From: a virus
Reading direction: 5' to 3' (one strand)
Virus record (IMG/VR): IMGVR_UViG_3300042987_000953
Location: 1-37,023 of that record
DNA length: 37,023 bases
Part shown: positions 4,714 to 10,947 of the stretch, in pieces
Layout: the number at the start of each line of letters is the position of its first letter
How positions within the stretch are numbered: position 1 is the stretch's first letter
Position numbers and translations under genes: made by a program
Notes under the pieces: model-generated
What the model saw: the letters and a program-made list of their open reading frames with translations, nothing else
The model's database searches: none
What the model was told of the DNA's origin: nothing

Positions 4714-5499
4714 ATGAACAACACCGAGTACCACTCGCACCCAGCGGTATCGAAGAGCCACCTCGATCAGGTGGCCCGGTCGCCGCTCCACTATTGGTCC
4801 CGGTACGTGGCCGAGGACCGGGTCGTTCCCGACCCCACCCCCGCGATGATGCTGGGGACTGCTCTCCACGCTCGGGTGCTGGAACCCGAGCTATTCGCTG
4901 CCGAGTATGCTCTGGCCCCGGCAGTGGACCGCCGCACCAAGGCAGGGAAAGACGCCTGGGCGGAAGCCGAGGCCGAGGGGAAGACACTGCTGTCTGCTGC
5001 CGATTGGGCGCAGATTGACGGCATGGCAGCAGCGATTGAATCCCACCGGGGGGCATCGAAGCTGCTGGCCCAGCAGGGTCTGACCGAGGCGTCTTTGTTC
5101 TGGACGGACGACGCTACTGGCATCGAATGCAAGTGCCGCCCAGACCGCACAATCAGCGACGAATGGATTCTCGACCTGAAGACCACCGAGGATGCCAGCC
5201 CTGCCGGGTTCGCGAAGTCGGCGTGGAACTTCCGGTATCACGTCCAGGCCAGCTGGTATCTCGATGGCGTTCGCTCATATGGCGGCCAGCCCCAGGGCTT
5301 CGTCTTCATCGCTGTTGAGAAGAAGCCGCCCTACGCGGTTGCCGTCTACCTTGCCGACCCTGAAATGGTTGCCGCCGGGGGGCGGGAAGCCCGTCGCTGT
5401 CTCAATCTGATTGCCGAATGTCGCGCCACCGGCAAGTGGCCCGGCTACGGTGACACCGCGCAAGTTCTGTCTCTGCCCAAGTGGGCGAAGGATTCCTGA
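4714..5499 (+). CDS. RecE/exonuclease VIII-like PD-(D/E)XK exonuclease
   Basis: This 261-residue protein matches the phage exonuclease family related to RecE (DUF3799 type). Motifs are GTALH with His52, the acidic residue in CRPDR (Asp144), LDLKTT with Asp154 and Lys156, and a downstream Gln/Tyr helix (HVQASWYLDG, about 176-185). The enzyme would degrade the 5' strand of double-stranded DNA ends to expose single strands for the annealing protein encoded immediately downstream. A clear ribosome binding site, TAGGGAG, precedes the ATG, and its TGA stop overlaps the next start (TGATG). The family assignment is strong; use in repair, replication or concatemer formation is inferred. Confidence 0.88.
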   Translation: MNNTEYHSHPAVSKSHLDQVARSPLHYWSRYVAEDRVVPDPTPAMMLGTALHARVLEPELFAAEYALAPAVDRRTKAGKDAWAEAEAEGKTLLSAADWAQIDGMAAAIESHRGASKLLAQQGLTEASLFWTDDATGIECKCRPDRTISDEWILDLKTTEDASPAGFAKSAWNFRYHVQASWYLDGVRSYGGQPQGFVFIAVEKKPPYAVAVYLADPEMVAAGGREARRCLNLIAECRATGKWPGYGDTAQVLSLPKWAKDS

Positions 5500-6158
5500 T
5501 GTCTGATATCGTTCGTGTCGAGTCCGCTCCGATGGGTACCCAGGGTGGAGCGTTCGCCTCTGCCGGGTCGTTCGAGTTGGCCCAGCGGATGGCGAAGTGT
5601 CTGGCGGCATCGGACCTTGTGCCGCCCCAGTACCGCAACAACGTCAGCAACACGATGCTGGCCCTTGAGATTGCCCAGCGCATCGGCGCATCACCGCTGA
5701 TGGTGATGCAGAACCTCAACATCATCCACGGCAAGCCCAGCTGGTCCAGCCAGTTCATCATCGCCGCCATCAACTCCTGCGGTCGGTTCGGCCCCCTGCG
5801 GTTCCGGGTCGAGGGTGAGGGCGACGGTCGAGTTGTGACAGCCTACGCCCCCGAGAAGGGGACCGGCGAAATCCTGGAGGGTCCGCCGGTCAGCATCGCG
5901 ATGGCGAAATCCGAGGGCTGGTTGGCGAAAAGTGGCAGCAAATGGGTGACGATGCCCGACCTGATGCTGCGATATCGTGCTGCTGCCTTCTTTGGCAGGC
6001 TGTACGCCCCGGACGTTTTGATGGGCGTCTACACGGCTGATGAGATTGTCGAAATCGACGCAGCCGAAGTGCCCGTGCAGCGGGCAATCCCGACCGCATC
6101 GGTCGAAGAACTCAATCAGGTGATTGTAGAGGAGTCCAATGACACCGATCCGTTCTGA
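5499..6158 (+). CDS. RecT-family single-strand annealing protein
   Basis: The 219-residue protein has the conserved RecT core: an Ala/Leu-rich helix (MLALEIAQRIGASPLM), the following QNLNIIHGKPSW strand-turn, FIIAAINSCGRF, and a late LRYRAAAFFGRLYAPD segment typical of the family. RecT proteins anneal complementary single strands and work with a partner exonuclease, here encoded directly upstream with a TGATG overlap. The ATG at 5499 is preferred to an in-frame GTG at 5481 because GAAGGA lies upstream of it and the overlap style recurs here. The acidic C-terminal tail (EESNDTDPF) may contact other proteins. This pair is a complete two-gene recombination system. Confidence 0.9.
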   Translation: MSDIVRVESAPMGTQGGAFASAGSFELAQRMAKCLAASDLVPPQYRNNVSNTMLALEIAQRIGASPLMVMQNLNIIHGKPSWSSQFIIAAINSCGRFGPLRFRVEGEGDGRVVTAYAPEKGTGEILEGPPVSIAMAKSEGWLAKSGSKWVTMPDLMLRYRAAAFFGRLYAPDVLMGVYTADEIVEIDAAEVPVQRAIPTASVEELNQVIVEESNDTDPF

Positions 6159-6342
6159 GCCCGAGTATCTGACAGTCAAAGAACTGATTGGCCGGTGGCG
6201 CGGGCAGATTTCCGCCACCACCCTGGCGAACTGGCGCAGCGAGAGGAAGGGACCAGCCTTCATCAAGATTGGTGGGCGTGTTCTGTATCCGCTGGCCGAT
6301 GTCATCGCCTATGAAACGCAGAGCCGTCGCAGCAACGGCTAA
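6139..6342 (+). CDS. Small helix-turn-helix protein, excisionase/MerR-like
   Basis: The 67-residue protein is a single winged-helix domain of the excisionase/HTH_17 kind: LTVKELIGRW begins the first helices, TTLANWRSERKGPAF is the recognition helix region, and KIGGRVLYPLADVIAY is the wing and final strand-helix. Such proteins bind DNA as excisionases or as small regulators. No integrase gene is visible, so regulation of the recombination operon is more likely than excision. It overlaps the end of the RecT-like gene by 20 bases and has a GAGGAG ribosome binding site. Confidence 0.75.
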   Translation: MTPIRSEPEYLTVKELIGRWRGQISATTLANWRSERKGPAFIKIGGRVLYPLADVIAYETQSRRSNG

Positions 6343-6399
6343 CCTCCCCCGGCCCGGCTCCGAGGCCGCAGTATCGGGCAGTTGTTACTCAGCGAAATC

Positions 6400-6804
6400 A
6401 TGAAAATCTCTGCCGCACTCTTCCACCAAACCGCAGCCGACATCCAGGCCCGCCTGGGTGACCGGTTCAACCCGGCTACGAACTACCCGGCCTACGACGG
6501 CGTGATGTCGGTCCCCGCCACCCTGGTCCCTGAACTCATCGAGTACCTGACCGCAGCCCAGCCGAACGACCGGGGCGAGATTCCCCTGAAGCTGGCGGGC
6601 TGGAAGAAGACTTCCAACGCTGGCAAGACGTACCTGTCCATTCAGGTCAGCGAGGACTACAAGACCGCCAAGGCCATCGAGGCTGCTCGGGCCGCGCAGG
6701 CTGCTGCCGCCCCCGCTCCCAGCCCCGTTGCCGCCGCTGCCCAGCAGCTGGCCGCCAACTTCGGCGGGCAGGTCGTCCCCGCCGAAGAAGACGTTCCGTT
6801 CTAG
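6400..6804 (+). CDS. Putative SSB-like protein with acidic PF tip
   Basis: The 134-residue product has a compact beta-rich region with LKLAGWKKTSNAGKTYLSIQV (about residues 67-87), a flexible Ala/Pro tail, and ends EEDVPF. That tip matches the C-terminal peptide by which bacterial SSB proteins recruit repair and replication enzymes, and the layout of core, disordered linker and acidic tip is that of an SSB. The position just after the RecE- and RecT-like genes fits single-strand handling. I chose the ATG at 6400; a TTG 18 bases upstream is possible. It is not a recognisable classical OB-fold sequence, so SSB function is inferred from the tail, the region and the context. Confidence 0.6.
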   Translation: MKISAALFHQTAADIQARLGDRFNPATNYPAYDGVMSVPATLVPELIEYLTAAQPNDRGEIPLKLAGWKKTSNAGKTYLSIQVSEDYKTAKAIEAARAAQAAAAPAPSPVAAAAQQLAANFGGQVVPAEEDVPF

Positions 6805-6810
6805 AACGGA
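6795..6810. repeat. 16-bp perfect palindrome at two convergent stop codons
   Basis: TCCGTTCTAGAACGGA spans the TAG stop codons of the SSB-like gene (plus) and of the small minus-strand gene, which share CTAG. Because of the symmetry both proteins end in Pro-Phe. There is no T-run, so it is not a classical terminator. Confidence 0.6.
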
Positions 6811-7052
6811 GCCTTCCCGCCGTAGACATCGGCGAGACCGGTGAACAGACCGTGCATCGGGTGGCTGGGGTCGTGGCGTCCGTCGAGGGCGTACCACTTC
6901 TCCAGCCGCCCGGGCCGCGCCACCTGCTCAGCCAGGTCCCAGCCACCGGCGACGTGTTCCAGGCTGGCGGCGACCGCCTCGCGAACCTCGGCTTCAGTCG
7001 GGGTCCAGTAGTAGGCCGGGCCAGTCGGGGTCTGATATTCGTGTCGGATCAT
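6801..7052 (-). CDS. Unknown 83-aa protein read against its neighbours
   Basis: I do not recognise this protein. It begins MIRHEYQTPTGPAYYW, contains a helical EAEVREAVAASLEHV segment and ends GGKAPF. Its composition looks like real protein, and it is the only minus-strand gene inside the rightward block. The ATG at 7052 is favoured because the longer frame upstream runs through the probable control region. It converges on the SSB-like gene, with the two stop codons overlapping. A small regulator or takeover protein transcribed separately is possible; this is inference. Confidence 0.5.
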   Translation of the reverse strand: MIRHEYQTPTGPAYYWTPTEAEVREAVAASLEHVAGGWDLAEQVARPGRLEKWYALDGRHDPSHPMHGLFTGLADVYGGKAPF

Positions 7053-7174
7053 GGCGCAATGCAATGCTGCGGGACCATTGTGCCATCCTCGGACTGTGTT
7101 ACGGATTGTTACGAACAGTTGCACAGTCGGAACGCTACCTGCAAGAATACGGTCATTGAGTTTGAGATTCATTG
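7053..7174. promoter_or_regulatory. Divergent intergenic region with repeats
   Basis: This gap lies between a minus-strand gene and the small-gene cluster on the plus strand. It holds an inverted repeat GACTGTG (7092-7098) / CACAGTC (7122-7128), and between the arms two direct copies of TGTTACG ten bases apart. That arrangement looks like an operator with promoters nearby, but no clear -35/-10 pair was found. Confidence 0.4.
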
Positions 7175-7321
7175 ATGTCCGTCACTGCCACTCTGTTTCG
7201 CTCCTGGCTTGCCCACGTTCAGGGAGCTCAGTCCCCCGAGCGCTTCTGGGCCGCCCTGACCAACACCGAGTACCCCGGCTGGGACTGGGTTATCGCGATT
7301 GATGAATCGCTCCTCGACTAA
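7175..7321 (+). CDS. Small unknown protein, 48 aa
   Basis: The product starts MSVTATLFRSWLAHVQG and ends WDWVIAIDESLLD; it is acidic and Trp-rich with no signal peptide or motif I recognise. It is the first gene of the rightward small-gene cluster, just after the repeat-containing control region. The ribosome binding site is weak. The coding call rests on uninterrupted frame, plausible protein composition and tight packing with following genes; other reading frames here look worse. Confidence 0.5.
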   Translation: MSVTATLFRSWLAHVQGAQSPERFWAALTNTEYPGWDWVIAIDESLLD

Positions 7322-7348
7322 CACCGCAAACACCAACCGAGAACATTC

Positions 7349-7639
7349 ATGTCTGAACGCATCCCTGGTCGTGTCTACAACGTTTCCAACTACATGATGA
7401 TGGTCGTCCCTGAGTGGTTCGGCATCGACGAACGCAACGGCAGCGCAGTCGCTGTCCTGGGCGAAGACTTCGACGCCATCACCATCTCCAGCCAGCTTGC
7501 AGGTGTCGCCGAGCATGGCGACGAACTGCGGTGGTGGAAGAGCCCGACTGGTCTTGCCGGTCTGCTGGTGAAGGCCAGCGGTGAGCAGATTTCACTGCTC
7601 GGCGACGACGAAGAACCTGTCCACCTCTATCTGGCGTAG
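7349..7639 (+). CDS. Unknown acidic protein, 96 aa
   Basis: The family is not recognised. The protein begins MSERIPGRVYNVSNYMMM and appears beta-rich and acidic, ending GDDEEPVHLYLA. A stretch GLAGLLVKASGEQISLL could form a small core. No cysteines, signal peptide or membrane segment are present. It follows the 48-residue gene with 27 bases between them and is followed after two bases by the next start, so it belongs to the same transcription unit. Small acidic phage proteins of this kind are often early host-takeover factors, but there is no direct evidence here. Confidence 0.6.
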   Translation: MSERIPGRVYNVSNYMMMVVPEWFGIDERNGSAVAVLGEDFDAITISSQLAGVAEHGDELRWWKSPTGLAGLLVKASGEQISLLGDDEEPVHLYLA

Positions 7640-7641
7640 CG

Positions 7642-7803
7642 ATGTTTGACTTCATCGAGCAAGTCCGGGTCCGCTACCGTCTGGGCCGACTGGTGCAGGC
7701 GATGGTAGCTGAAGGCCAATCGGTTCAGGCAGCACTCGACGCCATCGAACGGGCACTGGAAAACAAAACGCTGAGGTTTCTGGAAGAAGAATGGCTTTCG
7801 TAG
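7642..7803 (+). CDS. Small helical protein, 53 aa
   Basis: The frame begins MFDFIEQVRVRYRLGRLV two bases after the preceding stop and ends FLEEEWLS. It is predicted to be almost entirely helical, with alternating charged and hydrophobic residues and no signal or metal motif. Its last codons overlap the start of the next gene by 13 bases and carry that gene's GGAAGAAGA ribosome binding site. The function is unknown; a DNA- or protein-binding helical hairpin would fit. Confidence 0.55.
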   Translation: MFDFIEQVRVRYRLGRLVQAMVAEGQSVQAALDAIERALENKTLRFLEEEWLS

Positions 7804-8009
7804 TCCGCATCCAGTTCCCAGGTGCCCGAGCCTACCTCAACAGGAAGCTGAATGACACGACCTACAGCATCAAACTCGCCGCCGTGTTCGCCACGGAGGA
7901 AGAAGCCAAAGCCGCCAAAGCCCGTGCCGATTTTCCATTCGGCCTCGCCTCTGTGGCCCCTCTTCCTGCTGATAATGGCCGTCGCACTCGCCGCGACACC
8001 GACGCCTAA
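7791..8009 (+). CDS. Unknown basic protein, 72 aa
   Basis: The protein starts MAFVVRIQFPGARAYL after a strong GGAAGAAGA ribosome binding site. The first two thirds look like a beta-beta-alpha unit with a helix TEEEAKAAKARADF, and the C-terminus is basic (NGRRTRRDTDA). The family is not recognised. The last 86 bases are shared with an overlapping frame that encodes a signal-peptide-like peptide, so this stretch is under dual constraint if both are real. Confidence 0.6.
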   Translation: MAFVVRIQFPGARAYLNRKLNDTTYSIKLAAVFATEEEAKAAKARADFPFGLASVAPLPADNGRRTRRDTDA

Positions 8010-8058
8010 CATCCCCTACTGCGTTCCCCACCACCTGGGTGGTGTCACCTGCAAATGA
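7924..8058 (+). CDS. Overlapping small secreted peptide, 44 aa
   Basis: In a second frame, a GTG at 7924 opens a 44-codon frame whose product has a hydrophobic PLWPLFLLIMAVALAA stretch followed by a short polar tail with two cysteines (IPYC, VTCK). This looks like a signal peptide with an ALAA cleavage site and a mature peptide of about 24 residues. Its TGA overlaps the ATG of the next gene (ATGA at 8055-8058), the junction used throughout this genome, which argues that it is real. It overlaps the 72-codon gene out of frame, as Rz1-type genes do, but there is no lipobox. The start codon is uncertain. Confidence 0.45.
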   Translation: MPIFHSASPLWPLFLLIMAVALAATPTPNIPYCVPHHLGGVTCK

Positions 8059-8300
8059 ACAAGAACAAGTCCAATGCCGAACGACAGAGACTGTGGCGAT
8101 TGCGCCATTCTGGCGAACTGCCACCTTCCCCTCGGTGTCCGCAGTGCGGTCGCCGAATGTACGGAGAAGACGGTCCCTACAGCGGGCATGGCATCTGCTC
8201 CCGCTGCTGGGTAAAAACTCCCGATGGCCAGGAGTACGAACGCCGGAAGGCCCGTGACCGAATGCGGGCCGCCCGCGCCAGGAAGAAGGCCGATGGGTAA
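8055..8300 (+). CDS. Zinc-ribbon protein, 81 aa
   Basis: The product has a four-cysteine zinc-ribbon motif CPQC and CSRC separated by about 18 residues (about 28-52), flanked by strongly basic arms (ERQRLWRLRH at the start, KARDRMRAARARKK at the end). This arrangement suggests a small nucleic-acid-binding protein. It begins at an ATG overlapping the stop of the secreted-peptide frame and has no evident ribosome binding site, which supports translational coupling to that upstream frame. The exact family is not recognised. Confidence 0.7.
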   Translation: MNKNKSNAERQRLWRLRHSGELPPSPRCPQCGRRMYGEDGPYSGHGICSRCWVKTPDGQEYERRKARDRMRAARARKKADG

Positions 8301-8478
8301 CTACGAAATCAGCCGAGATGGAGACCTTTGGGTTCTCCGCAGCCTGTGCCCGCCGCGCCGCCTGTTCGCCTACGAACACTGGTCCGACGCATTTGTAGAC
8401 CTAGCAATTCTCAACGATGAAACGCCTATCCGTTCTGATGACCGCAGCCCTCGCACTTCTTCAGCCGACCATCGCTGA
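8293..8478 (+). CDS. Unknown 61-aa protein
   Basis: The frame begins MGNYEISRDGDLWVLRSL, eight bases inside the end of the zinc-ribbon gene, and extends 62 bases into the RlpA-like gene. The first 45 residues look like a small beta-rich domain (GDLWVLRSLCPPRRLFAYEHW); the last part, read over the signal-peptide codons of the next gene, is polar and low in structure. No family is recognised. The compact overlapping arrangement and good start argue for a real gene. Confidence 0.55.
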   Translation: MGNYEISRDGDLWVLRSLCPPRRLFAYEHWSDAFVDLAILNDETPIRSDDRSPRTSSADHR

Positions 8479-8761
8479 CGCCCATCACGGCGGTCGCCAC
8501 GTCACCGCGACTGTCTACCACAGCTGGTTCCACGGTCGCCCCGATGCCTGCGGTGGCACCTACAGCGACCACCGAGTCAGCGCCGCCCACCCGTGGCTGC
8601 CCTGCGGCACCCGCGTCCGCGTCACCCATCGGGGTCGGTCCTTGGTGGTGCCCATCACCGACCGCTGCGCCTGCGAGTCCATCGACCTCAGCTACGAAGC
8701 CGCCCGCCGTCTCGGTGTCCCGACTGACGGCATCGCCACTGTCCGTATTCAGGAGCTGTAG
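8417..8761 (+). CDS. Secreted RlpA-like double-psi beta-barrel protein
   Basis: The 114-residue protein has a signal peptide (basic MKR, then VLMTAALALLQ, cleavage near residue 21-23) and a double-psi beta-barrel domain like RlpA. Recognisable are TATVYHSWFHGR, GTRVRVTHRGRSLVVPITDR and IDLSYEAARRLGV, close to the RlpA consensus with its conserved Asp residues. Four cysteines suggest disulfides and an extracytoplasmic location. Bacterial RlpA cleaves denuded peptidoglycan glycans or binds the cell wall; a phage copy among early genes could remodel the envelope or hinder other phages. It lacks the SPOR domain. The fold is confident; activity is not shown. Confidence 0.8.
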   Translation: MKRLSVLMTAALALLQPTIADAHHGGRHVTATVYHSWFHGRPDACGGTYSDHRVSAAHPWLPCGTRVRVTHRGRSLVVPITDRCACESIDLSYEAARRLGVPTDGIATVRIQEL

Positions 8762-8763
8762 TG

Positions 8764-9003
8764 ATGAACCGTTACGACGCCTTCTTTGACTGGTGGGAAG
8801 CCAATCGGGAGATTTATCGCAGTTATGACAGCGCAATAAAGGTTGCCTACGGAACGTGGGCAGCAGCGCTGAACTGGAACGACGCCCACGCAGCGCGGCA
8901 GCAGCTGCGTCAAGAACTGAAGTCTGAGCTTGACAAGTGCGTCGATGGCTTCTGCCCGGTGTCACTGTTCCAGCCCATCGATGACACGGAGGGGAGTGCA
9001 TGA
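8764..9003 (+). CDS. Unknown helical protein, 79 aa
   Basis: The product begins MNRYDAFFDWWEANREIY and is Trp- and Ala-rich and mostly helical (NDAHAARQQLRQELKSELDKC), with two cysteines near CVDGFC. The sequence resembles many small phage proteins of unknown role; I cannot assign a family. The ATG at 8764 follows an in-frame GTG at 8761 and is preferred. Its stop overlaps the next start by four bases (ATGA). Confidence 0.6.
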   Translation: MNRYDAFFDWWEANREIYRSYDSAIKVAYGTWAAALNWNDAHAARQQLRQELKSELDKCVDGFCPVSLFQPIDDTEGSA

Positions 9004-9434
9004 GCAGCATCCCCGTCCGGGTGCTGGAAACCGGCCAGTCGTTCCCGAGCCTCCCAGCCGCCATCGCGGCGCTTTTCCATCGCCGCAGGACTGGCCGGGA
9101 CTACATGAACTTTGACGAGGGTAAGCCCATCAGCGGGCTGCACATCTACCCCGCCGACGAAGACCCGAAGGTCTGGTTTCAGCCCCCGCCACCACCTGGC
9201 CAGAGCCAGGGTCGCCGCACCCCGGTGCGCTGCATCGGCACCGGCATCATCTACCCCTCGATGGCGGAAGCAGGTCGCGCCAACCACGTCGCCCCGGCAG
9301 CCATCTACCAAGCCATTCACAAGCGCGGCAGATGCTGCGGTCACTACTGGGAGTACGCCAATGGACACGAAGCAACAGCCCGACAACATCAAGCACCCGC
9401 CGCACTACACACAAGGCAGCATCGAGTGCATTGA
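9000..9434 (+). CDS. Freestanding NUMOD1-type repeat protein, 144 aa
   Basis: Residues about 75-120 match the NUMOD1/IENR-type DNA-binding repeat: a strand (VRCIGTGIIYPS), two helices (MAEAGRANHVAPAAIYQAI) and a closing GHYWEYA. The N-terminus (VRVLETGQSFPSLPAAIAAL) looks like a diverged first copy. In known proteins these repeats form the DNA-recognition arm of HNH or GIY-YIG homing nucleases; here no nuclease domain is present. The last 24 codons overlap the DUF3310 gene and look unconstrained. It probably binds DNA or RNA; a paralogue with two clear repeats lies at 9935. Confidence 0.65.
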   Translation: MSSIPVRVLETGQSFPSLPAAIAALFHRRRTGRDYMNFDEGKPISGLHIYPADEDPKVWFQPPPPPGQSQGRRTPVRCIGTGIIYPSMAEAGRANHVAPAAIYQAIHKRGRCCGHYWEYANGHEATARQHQAPAALHTRQHRVH

Positions 9435-9600
9435 CGCCATCGAGCAGGTGGTAGCCCACTACCCGCCCGATATGGCCTACCACGTCGGCTGCATCCTGAA
9501 GTACCTGTGGCGGGCTCCCCACAAGGGCACCTTCGTTCAAGACCTGAAGAAGGCCCACTGGTATCTGGAACGTGCCCTGGAGACGACCGCAGAATGGTGA
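9361..9600 (+). CDS. DUF3310 family protein
   Basis: The 79-residue product matches the phage DUF3310 family (often annotated nucleotide kinase-like): HPPHYTQGSIECIDAIE at the front, a central ILKYLWRAPHKG and DLKKAHWYLERAL at the end. The family is widespread in phage nucleotide-metabolism and accessory regions, but its biochemical role is not established. The length is typical. It starts at an ATG inside the end of the NUMOD1-type gene and its stop overlaps the next gene by seven bases. Confidence 0.88.
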   Translation: MDTKQQPDNIKHPPHYTQGSIECIDAIEQVVAHYPPDMAYHVGCILKYLWRAPHKGTFVQDLKKAHWYLERALETTAEW

Positions 9601-9992
9601 ACTGTCGTGAGTGCGGCAAGCGGTCCTACGGCGGCACCGAAGCCCGCAAGCAGGCCCAACTCTGCTACGACTGCTGGCGCAGCACCGTCGAGTGCCGCAT
9701 CAAGGAGTCCGGTCGCCGCCGGAAGAACTTCACCGGGGCGCGTTCCATCTGCGACCTCGCCCCTGGATGCCGGGTCCGCAAGGTCAAGATCGAACTCTTC
9801 AACAACCGCACCCCGCCCGAGGAGGGCACAATCGTCAGCGCACCCGTTCTGGTCGGTGGTAACTGCTGGCGAGTTGAAGTCCACTGGGATGGCCGCCCAT
9901 CCCCCCAAGCTGTTGACGTTCGTCGTGTCTCCCTATGCCCAATCCCCGACCCGTCCTGTGCGTCGAAACAGGAATCGTTTACCGCTCAATGA
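9594..9992 (+). CDS. Zinc-ribbon protein with C-terminal beta domain, 132 aa
   Basis: The N-terminus carries a treble of metal-ligand pairs, CREC (residues 4-7) and CYDC (about 24-27), typical of a small zinc ribbon, followed by a basic helix (RIKESGRRRKNF). The C-terminal half looks like an SH3-type beta barrel (GCRVRKVKIELFNN, EEGTIVSAPVLV, CWRVEVHWDG). That combination suggests binding to nucleic acid or to ribonucleoprotein. The ATG at 9594 is chosen because it overlaps the previous stop. The zinc ribbon resembles that of the gene at 8055, so the two may be distant paralogues. Confidence 0.65.
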   Translation: MVNCRECGKRSYGGTEARKQAQLCYDCWRSTVECRIKESGRRRKNFTGARSICDLAPGCRVRKVKIELFNNRTPPEEGTIVSAPVLVGGNCWRVEVHWDGRPSPQAVDVRRVSLCPIPDPSCASKQESFTAQ

Positions 9993-10279
9993 CCGAGGCT
10001 GCCCGCGCCGTCCACGTCTGCTGGTCCGGGGTTAGCCATGCCGTCCGAGGGGGCCATGCTGCCGGTGGGTATATGTGGCGCTACGCCGATGGCACCGTCC
10101 CACCGACCGCCAAGCCCCGCCGATATCGCCGCCTGCGCCGCGTCGAGCGTGAGGATGGCGTCGTGTTCGACTCAGCCAAGGCTGCCGCCCGCAGCGTCGG
10201 GGTCCACGTCCAGACCATCTACAGTGCCGTCTCGAAGCACCAGACCGCTGGCGGCTACTACTGGAGGTACGTCCAATGA
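9935..10279 (+). CDS. Double NUMOD1-type repeat protein, 114 aa
   Basis: Two tandem repeats make up nearly the whole protein. Repeat 1 (about 6-52) runs VLCVETGIVYRSMTEAARAV to GGYMWRYADG; repeat 2 (about 70-113) runs VEREDGVVFDSAKAAARSV to GGYYWRYV. Both have the strand-helix-helix-GGYxWRY pattern of NUMOD1/IENR repeats. A short basic linker (PRRYRRLRR) joins them. No catalytic nuclease domain is present. The gene overlaps the zinc-ribbon gene before it by 58 bases and the next gene by four (ATGA). A sequence-specific binding protein without nuclease activity is the simplest reading. Confidence 0.72.
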   Translation: MPNPRPVLCVETGIVYRSMTEAARAVHVCWSGVSHAVRGGHAAGGYMWRYADGTVPPTAKPRRYRRLRRVEREDGVVFDSAKAAARSVGVHVQTIYSAVSKHQTAGGYYWRYVQ

Positions 10280-10455
10280 AGCGACTGGTTGGCCCACCCC
10301 CAGGCTGGGCAAGCGAAGGCTACGGAGCCCAGTGGGGACCGCGTGGGTTCCGAGCCTGGACACTCCATGACCGCGAAGTAACGTGGCTGGACTGGCACCC
10401 GGAACTGATAGTCGCCTTGGACCAGGCCGAGGAGTTCTACCATGTAGCAACCTAG
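10276..10455 (+). CDS. Small Trp-rich protein, 59 aa
   Basis: The last gene of the rightward cluster begins MKRLVGPPPGWASEGYG and ends EEFYHVAT. It is rich in Trp, Gly and Pro and has no motif I recognise. Its start overlaps the previous stop (ATGA), and a good terminator follows 18 bases after its stop codon, which supports its being the true end of the operon. Confidence 0.6.
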   Translation: MKRLVGPPPGWASEGYGAQWGPRGFRAWTLHDREVTWLDWHPELIVALDQAEEFYHVAT

Positions 10456-10472: not shown

Positions 10473-10500
10473 GCCCCGGCCTCGGTCGGGGTTTTTCTTT
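10473..10500 (+). terminator. Rho-independent terminator of the rightward operon
   Basis: A GC-rich hairpin (CCCCGGCC / GGTCGGGG, with a small loop and one G-U pair) is followed by TTTTTCTTT. It sits just after the last plus-strand gene. Confidence 0.85.
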
Positions 10501-10613
10501 GGGGGCATGGTGGGGACACGGCCCAGTCCGGCCAGCACCCGCGGCGATGCTACAATCGGGCACCCGGTCGGGTCCTGTCTAGCTTCGGTGATAGCCGAAA
10601 GGAAAAGTCAGGT

Positions 10614-10690
10614 CGGCCCCCGACTGGGCCATTTGTGGGATCGCCCGTTAGCATCAAACCCCGTTGCCGCTCATCCGGCCCCCGACTGGG
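10614..10690. repeat. 15-bp direct repeat pair
   Basis: CGGCCCCCGACTGGG occurs exactly at 10614-10628 and again at 10676-10690, 62 bases apart. The core GACTGGG of the first copy extends to GACTGGGCC, complementary to 10520-10528. Confidence 0.75.
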
Positions 10691-10704
10691 TTACAATCAC
10701 GAGC

Positions 10705-10762
10705 GCCAAGGCTTTCCAATAACCGCCAGCGTAACTGGCATTGGGAAACTGACACCCTTGGC
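10705..10762. repeat. Nested three-stem hairpin
   Basis: Three stems are stacked: GCCAAGG with CCTTGGC (7 bp), TTTCCAAT with ATTGGGAAA (8 bp with one bulged G) and GCCAG with CTGGC (5 bp) around a CGTAA loop. Together they give about 20 paired positions in 58 bases, far more than chance would normally supply. Confidence 0.7.
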
Positions 10763-10805
10763 AGCGGTTCACGGGCTGTCGAAATCCGGGGGGCCGCATT
10801 TTTAT

Positions 10806-10836
10806 TGACACGTCAGTAAGTTATGGACGTGTCCAT
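10806..10836. promoter_or_regulatory. Two palindromes 19 bp apart, operator-like
   Basis: TGAC-AC-GTCA (10806-10815) and ATGGAC-GT-GTCCAT (10823-10836) have centres 19 bp apart. GACACGTC and GACGTGTC (10807-10814, 10826-10833) also form a longer 8-bp inverted repeat. A TTGACA at 10805-10810 overlaps the first but lacks a matching -10. A dimeric DNA-binding protein is the likely partner. Confidence 0.45.
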
Positions 10837-10865
10837 ATCGCGTTCATAAATCCGCCACCACAACC

Positions 10866-10900
10866 AAAAAACCCCGAGGGTAGGAGGACACCTCGGGGTT
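10866..10900 (-). terminator. Terminator of the late operon
   Basis: AACCCCGAGG pairs with CCTCGGGGTT (10-bp perfect stem, 11-base loop). On the minus strand the stem is followed by TTTTTT, so it ends the leftward late transcript after the dCTP deaminase-like gene. Confidence 0.88.
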
Positions 10901-10947
10901 CTTCGGACTTTCTGACCCAGCAGTTCTGGCCGCTGTGCCAGACCATT

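Follow-up and report, generated by a model that had tools for sequence, protein, structure and literature searches.

What kind of element occupies the gap between the convergent early and late operons of the virus recorded as IMGVR_UViG_3300042987_000953? Our analysis covered the whole 37,023-base IMG/VR sequence, of metagenomic origin (hereafter, the window), and followed up an earlier note which had proposed that positions 10501–10806 hold a stand-alone structured RNA. Plus-strand genes for an exonuclease, RecT and small proteins span 4714 to 10455, the late and lysis genes occupy the minus strand from 10948 onward, starting with the dCTP deaminase gene (dcd), and the element lies in the gap between these two operons. 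The closest relatives of the terminase are found in the Synechococcus phages S-CBS3 and S-CBS1 (42.6%), the capsid protein is closest to that of S-LBS1 (38%), and the dCTP deaminase is nearest to those of S-CRES3 and S-CBS2 (~50%); thus, judging from these protein affinities, a cyanobacterial host is probable. The window does not cover a complete genome, because a near relative (G003) carries ~6.3 kb between the stretches that correspond to the end and the start of the window; compared with 3300043442_000708, the ~6.3 kb missing at the record ends (1 and 37,023) includes the rest of the terminase, the small terminase and other genes. Despite this missing part, the order of the genes points to a circularly permuted map. 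Among the early genes, 9935–10279 (plus strand) encodes a NUMOD1-type protein that stands alone, lacks a nuclease domain and matches Pfam NUMOD1, with weak I-TevI/I-HmuI DNA-binding matches in addition; the product of 9000–9434 (plus strand; no family match) resembles it by eye.

Searching with dcd, we found the element in an equivalent position in three records (L002, L003/L082 and L004/L083). L002 nearly duplicates the window, and a single virus accounts for both L003/L082 and L004/L083, so that independent lineages number only two. Conservation between the window and L002 is uninformative as evidence, since their entire neighbourhood is almost identical. In the second lineage (L082/L083), the element adjoins a dcd that is ~75% identical to that of the window at the DNA level. 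Comparison of the two lineages reduces the signal to two compact plus-strand domains, A (10563–10628) and B (10705–10797), set among the following features:

10473–10497, plus strand: intrinsic terminator at the end of the early operon, matched by the scan (8-bp stem, 10473–10492, then TTTTTCTTT).
10551–10556, plus strand: -10-like box TACAAT 5′ of domain A, a putative promoter, 6 nt from the first paired base; TATCAT at equal spacing in L083.
10563–10628, plus strand: domain A hairpin, with basal stem 10563–10572/10619–10628, inner hairpin CTTCGG..CCGAAAG and conserved AGGAAAAGTCAGG.
10614–10628, plus strand: first copy of an exact 15-bp direct repeat, CGGCCCCCGACTGGG, being the 3′ arm of domain A.
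10629–10675, plus strand: lineage-specific insert of 47 nt bounded by the repeat copies, missing from L082/L083.
10676–10690, plus strand: second exact copy of CGGCCCCCGACTGGG, a duplicated domain A 3′ arm.
10692–10700, plus strand: TACAATCAC, conserved -10-like box 5′ of domain B, bordered on either side by DNA that cannot be aligned.
10705–10762, plus strand: domain B hairpin 1, with stems GCCAAGG/CCTTGGC, TTTCCAAT/ATTGGGAA and GCCAG/CTGGC, an RACC bulge and internal loop ACTGACAC.
10764–10797, plus strand: domain B hairpin 2, with stems GCGGTTC/GGGCCGC and CGGG/TCCG and loop CTGTCGAAA.
10798–10806, plus strand: U-rich tail ATTTTTATT, a possible terminator, window lineage only; AGCATTGAA instead in L083.
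10864–10906, no strand assigned: bidirectional terminator-like hairpin separating the element from dcd (16-nt inverted repeat, 88%).

Immediately after the element, at 10803–10837, the window lineage alone carries the paired near-palindromes TGACACGTCA and TGGACGTGTCCA, which could be an operator.

Blocks that hardly differ alternate here with DNA that cannot be aligned at all. The core of domain A (10569–10622) is identical in L083, TACAATCAC is identical across both lineages, and 10704–10798 shows only a handful of differences; upstream of ~10560, in the spacer separating A from B and beyond 10800, the DNA is unalignable, and the stem boundaries fall where the conserved blocks give way to it. 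Mosaicism of this phage pair is strong: 8516–9363, around a lytic-transglycosylase-like (DPBB) protein, is a recently swapped segment in which stretches of identity reach 92 nt, set against the ~75% identity of dcd. Because these phages recently exchanged DNA, such runs occurring in coding genes too, sequence identity alone is weak evidence. What carries the argument is the way in which identical and unalignable blocks alternate, together with the compensatory changes and the polarity of wobble pairs. These observations also bear on the possibility that the element is a boundary, or linker, sequence kept similar by homologous recombination among mosaic phages and not by an RNA function. Such a linker would be expected at a junction of early and late modules, exactly where the element lies, in phages that are indeed mosaic, and the contig of one relative stops at window position 10379, just upstream of the element. 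Recombination, however, predicts neither compensatory changes, nor strand-specific wobbles, nor unalignable DNA between conserved blocks, and we regard this explanation as unlikely.

The same comparison separates the conserved core, which consists of the two hairpin domains, from lineage-specific extras, namely, the repeat, the long-range pair and the second terminator. The strong plus-strand terminator that the earlier note placed before the stretch was recovered by the scan, and the nested hairpin it described is present at 10705–10762, alike in both lineages. The 15-bp direct repeat is likewise real but is not a conserved feature, being a duplication of the domain A 3′ arm that arose in the window lineage and flanks the 47-nt insert. 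Long-range pairing was found between 10520–10531 and 10619–10630 (12 nt, 92%) and between 10673–10683 and 10789–10799 (11 nt, 91%), but the pairings that the repeat enables are lineage-specific. As for the second terminator-like hairpin (10764–10806), its stem is conserved and both stem and tail are present in the window, but it cannot be counted as a conserved terminator because the relative lacks the ATTTTTATT tail.

Does the stretch encode a protein instead? An open reading frame, 10507–10722, runs through it in the window, L004/L083 contains a 60-aa frame preceded by AGGAGG, a good Shine-Dalgarno sequence, and the two share the frame through domain A, so that a short protein spanning this domain in frame GSCLASVIAERKSQVGPR could be envisaged. 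However, the N- and C-terminal parts of the two frames are unrelated, no family match was found (for 10507–10722, no PHROG match), and the stem arms change in pairs. Furthermore, the distance from the domain A core to the TACAAT before domain B is 69 nt in the window versus 17 nt in the relative, and this difference of 52 nt shifts the frame before B, so that A and B cannot belong to one protein. A coding function is therefore highly improbable, and the earlier view that the stretch holds no credible gene stands.

The basal stem of domain A provides the covariation that the earlier note had sought among homologues, albeit in two independent lineages only. Its six outer pairs are CCGGTC/GACTGG in the window versus GCGACC/GGTCGC in the relative, and all six form in both lineages, through three double changes (C-G to G-C, G-C to A-U and U-A to C-G), one single change (G-U to G-C) and two unchanged pairs. 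Hybrid stems combining arms of the two lineages lose pairs (5/6 and 3/6), and in a simulation, an equal number of random substitutions in the 3′ arm restored all six pairs with P ~0.0016. The pair-count tool reports two double changes, because a gap in the MAFFT alignment conceals the third, and the column-shuffle control (121/500) is without power at two sequences. In domain B, the differences in hairpin 1 are confined to the RACC bulge and the apical loop, whereas hairpin 2 differs from that of L083 at two positions, T10785C, where a G-U wobble becomes a G-C pair, and G10793A, where a U-G wobble becomes a U-A pair; the wobbles pair only as plus-strand RNA. With such compensatory changes, seen in two lineages only, the element would be assigned to the general kind of structured noncoding RNAs.

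The polarity of these wobbles also helps in weighing a DNA site, that is, an origin of replication or a site for packaging or recombination, working by way of hairpins or bound protein. This would suit a hairpin-rich intergenic stretch located at a strand switch, with the cumulative GC skew near its minimum, in a virus that encodes a primase/helicase. Yet the skew minimum is expected from gene orientation alone, neither iterons nor an AT-rich unwinding region is seen, the terminase genes are far off, and no tyrosine integrase was found (no PF00589 match in the record, which lacks ~6.3 kb of the genome; the search covered tyrosine integrases only). We consider such a site quite unlikely and favour a small RNA, given the strand-specific wobbles, the lack of a tyrosine integrase and the -10-like boxes.

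Folding energies point to the individual domains. The entire 306 nt fold unexceptionally (z -1.33; 11 of 100 shuffles were equally good), and whole-region folding was accordingly rejected as evidence. On the plus strand, domain A reaches z-scores of -3.5 in the window and -3.6 in the relative, and domain B -2.2 and -3.4, respectively; for both domains in both lineages, the z-scores are lower on the plus than on the minus strand. The plus-strand minimum-energy structure of B is identical between the lineages, whereas those of the minus strand differ. In this GC-rich genome, domain A ranks among the best 1.2% of same-length windows (0.8% when adjusted for GC content), and domain B only among the best 11% (6%).

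Could the element simply be the 3′ end of the early operon? Transcripts that read through the terminator at 10473 would then end in a structured 3′ untranslated region or a processing or stability element, which might shield the early mRNA from convergent late transcription. In both lineages, the element directly follows the last early gene and precedes the convergent dcd, a position compatible with this origin, as is the U-tract that follows B in the window. On the other hand, a strong terminator lies upstream of the element in the window, the U-tract is missing in L083, loop sequences are conserved beyond the needs of a terminator or stabiliser, and the element has -10-like boxes of its own; on balance, this origin appears improbable. 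In both lineages, 6–7 nt separate each box from the first paired base of its domain (7 nt in the case of TACAAT at 10692–10697 and domain B), and of the four TACAAT sites in the genome, two are within this element, both on the same strand. No -35 box is recognisable at the candidate promoters of A and B; -10-only promoters are common in cyanobacteria.

Thus, the reading that we prefer, and judge somewhat likelier to be right than wrong, is a new phage noncoding structured RNA, transcribed from the plus strand between the convergent operons and acting in trans. A promoter of the -10-only type (TACAAT/TATCAT) would initiate transcription at the foot of domain A, and the transcript would continue through B, yielding a candidate structured RNA of ~190 nt in the relative and ~245 nt in the window, which is probably functional; the second TACAAT may give rise to a shorter RNA of ~95 nt containing B alone. 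Downstream of B, no conserved intrinsic terminator is present, ATTTTTATT being confined to the window lineage; the transcript ends are putative. The structure is well supported, we infer transcription and function, and the overall case is suggestive because it comes from just two independent lineages. The earlier proposal of a stand-alone structured RNA thus holds for the plus-strand structure, as borne out by the compensatory changes, the wobble polarity and the block pattern, but not for the features that it stressed most, which are lineage-specific.

How might such an RNA act? The strict conservation of unpaired motifs points to a specific partner and hence argues for action in trans, most likely with the invariant motifs (AGGAAAAGTCAGG in A and, in B, the internal loop ACTGACAC and the loop CTGTCGAAA) displayed to a protein or RNA of the host or the phage. 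More specifically, the RNA might belong to a new family whose invariant loops trap a host component (RNA polymerase, an RNase or a defence ribonucleoprotein, for example), a rather doubtful proposition. A role in transcription control is imaginable, because in the related cyanosiphoviruses S-CBS1, S-CBS3 and S-LBS1 the late genes are followed by a sigma factor gene, whereas a search of this record revealed no sigma region 2 domain; the RNA could be in place of a protein transcription switch. Little is known of structured RNAs in cyanosiphoviruses. An element that is nearly unchanged next to genes at ~75% DNA identity suggests a constrained molecule with a specific partner, and it offers two compact, testable domains along with covariance models for searches of aquatic viromes and metatranscriptomes.

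Our own searches returned the element only from the records described above. The family search advocated in the earlier note gave no match to any Rfam 15 covariance model in the window at the gathering threshold, and relaxed scans produced only sub-threshold hits, such as BMV3_UPD-PK1 (20.9/38 bits) and M23 (15.2/41.2 bits). ARAGORN detected 0 tRNA or tmRNA genes, and a DNA similarity search of phage and plasmid records gave chance matches only. Exact and gapped motif scans of IMG/VR and GTDB genomes recovered the same three virus records, other hits showing no further similarity on inspection, and covariance models R1 and R2 found nothing convincing among 49 related virus records, including S-LBS1, S-CBS1 and S-CBS3 (best E 0.42). 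The best antisense duplexes with the phage, in the record, which lacks ~6.3 kb of the genome, were no stronger than those of shuffled RNA.

Among known systems, the closest parallels in setting are the phage intergenic small RNAs, such as OOP of lambda, sar of P22 and CfrI of cyanophage S-PM2 (reviewed in PMC12197685). OOP, sar and CfrI act, or are thought to act, by pairing with phage transcripts, whereas the candidate has no target above shuffled sequence, and we do not claim its membership in any of these. Like the c4 antisense RNA (RF01695) and the manA and wcaG motifs of cyanophages (RF01745 and RF01761; PMC2864571), the candidate is a structured phage RNA found by comparative analysis but, unlike them, has no Rfam match; moreover, manA and wcaG reside in 5′ untranslated regions, whereas the candidate lies downstream of an operon, with no plus-strand gene after it. 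With OOP, sar and CfrI, it shares being short, phage-encoded, noncoding and located beside or between operons. The candidate is, in short, new as a family and ordinary in kind.
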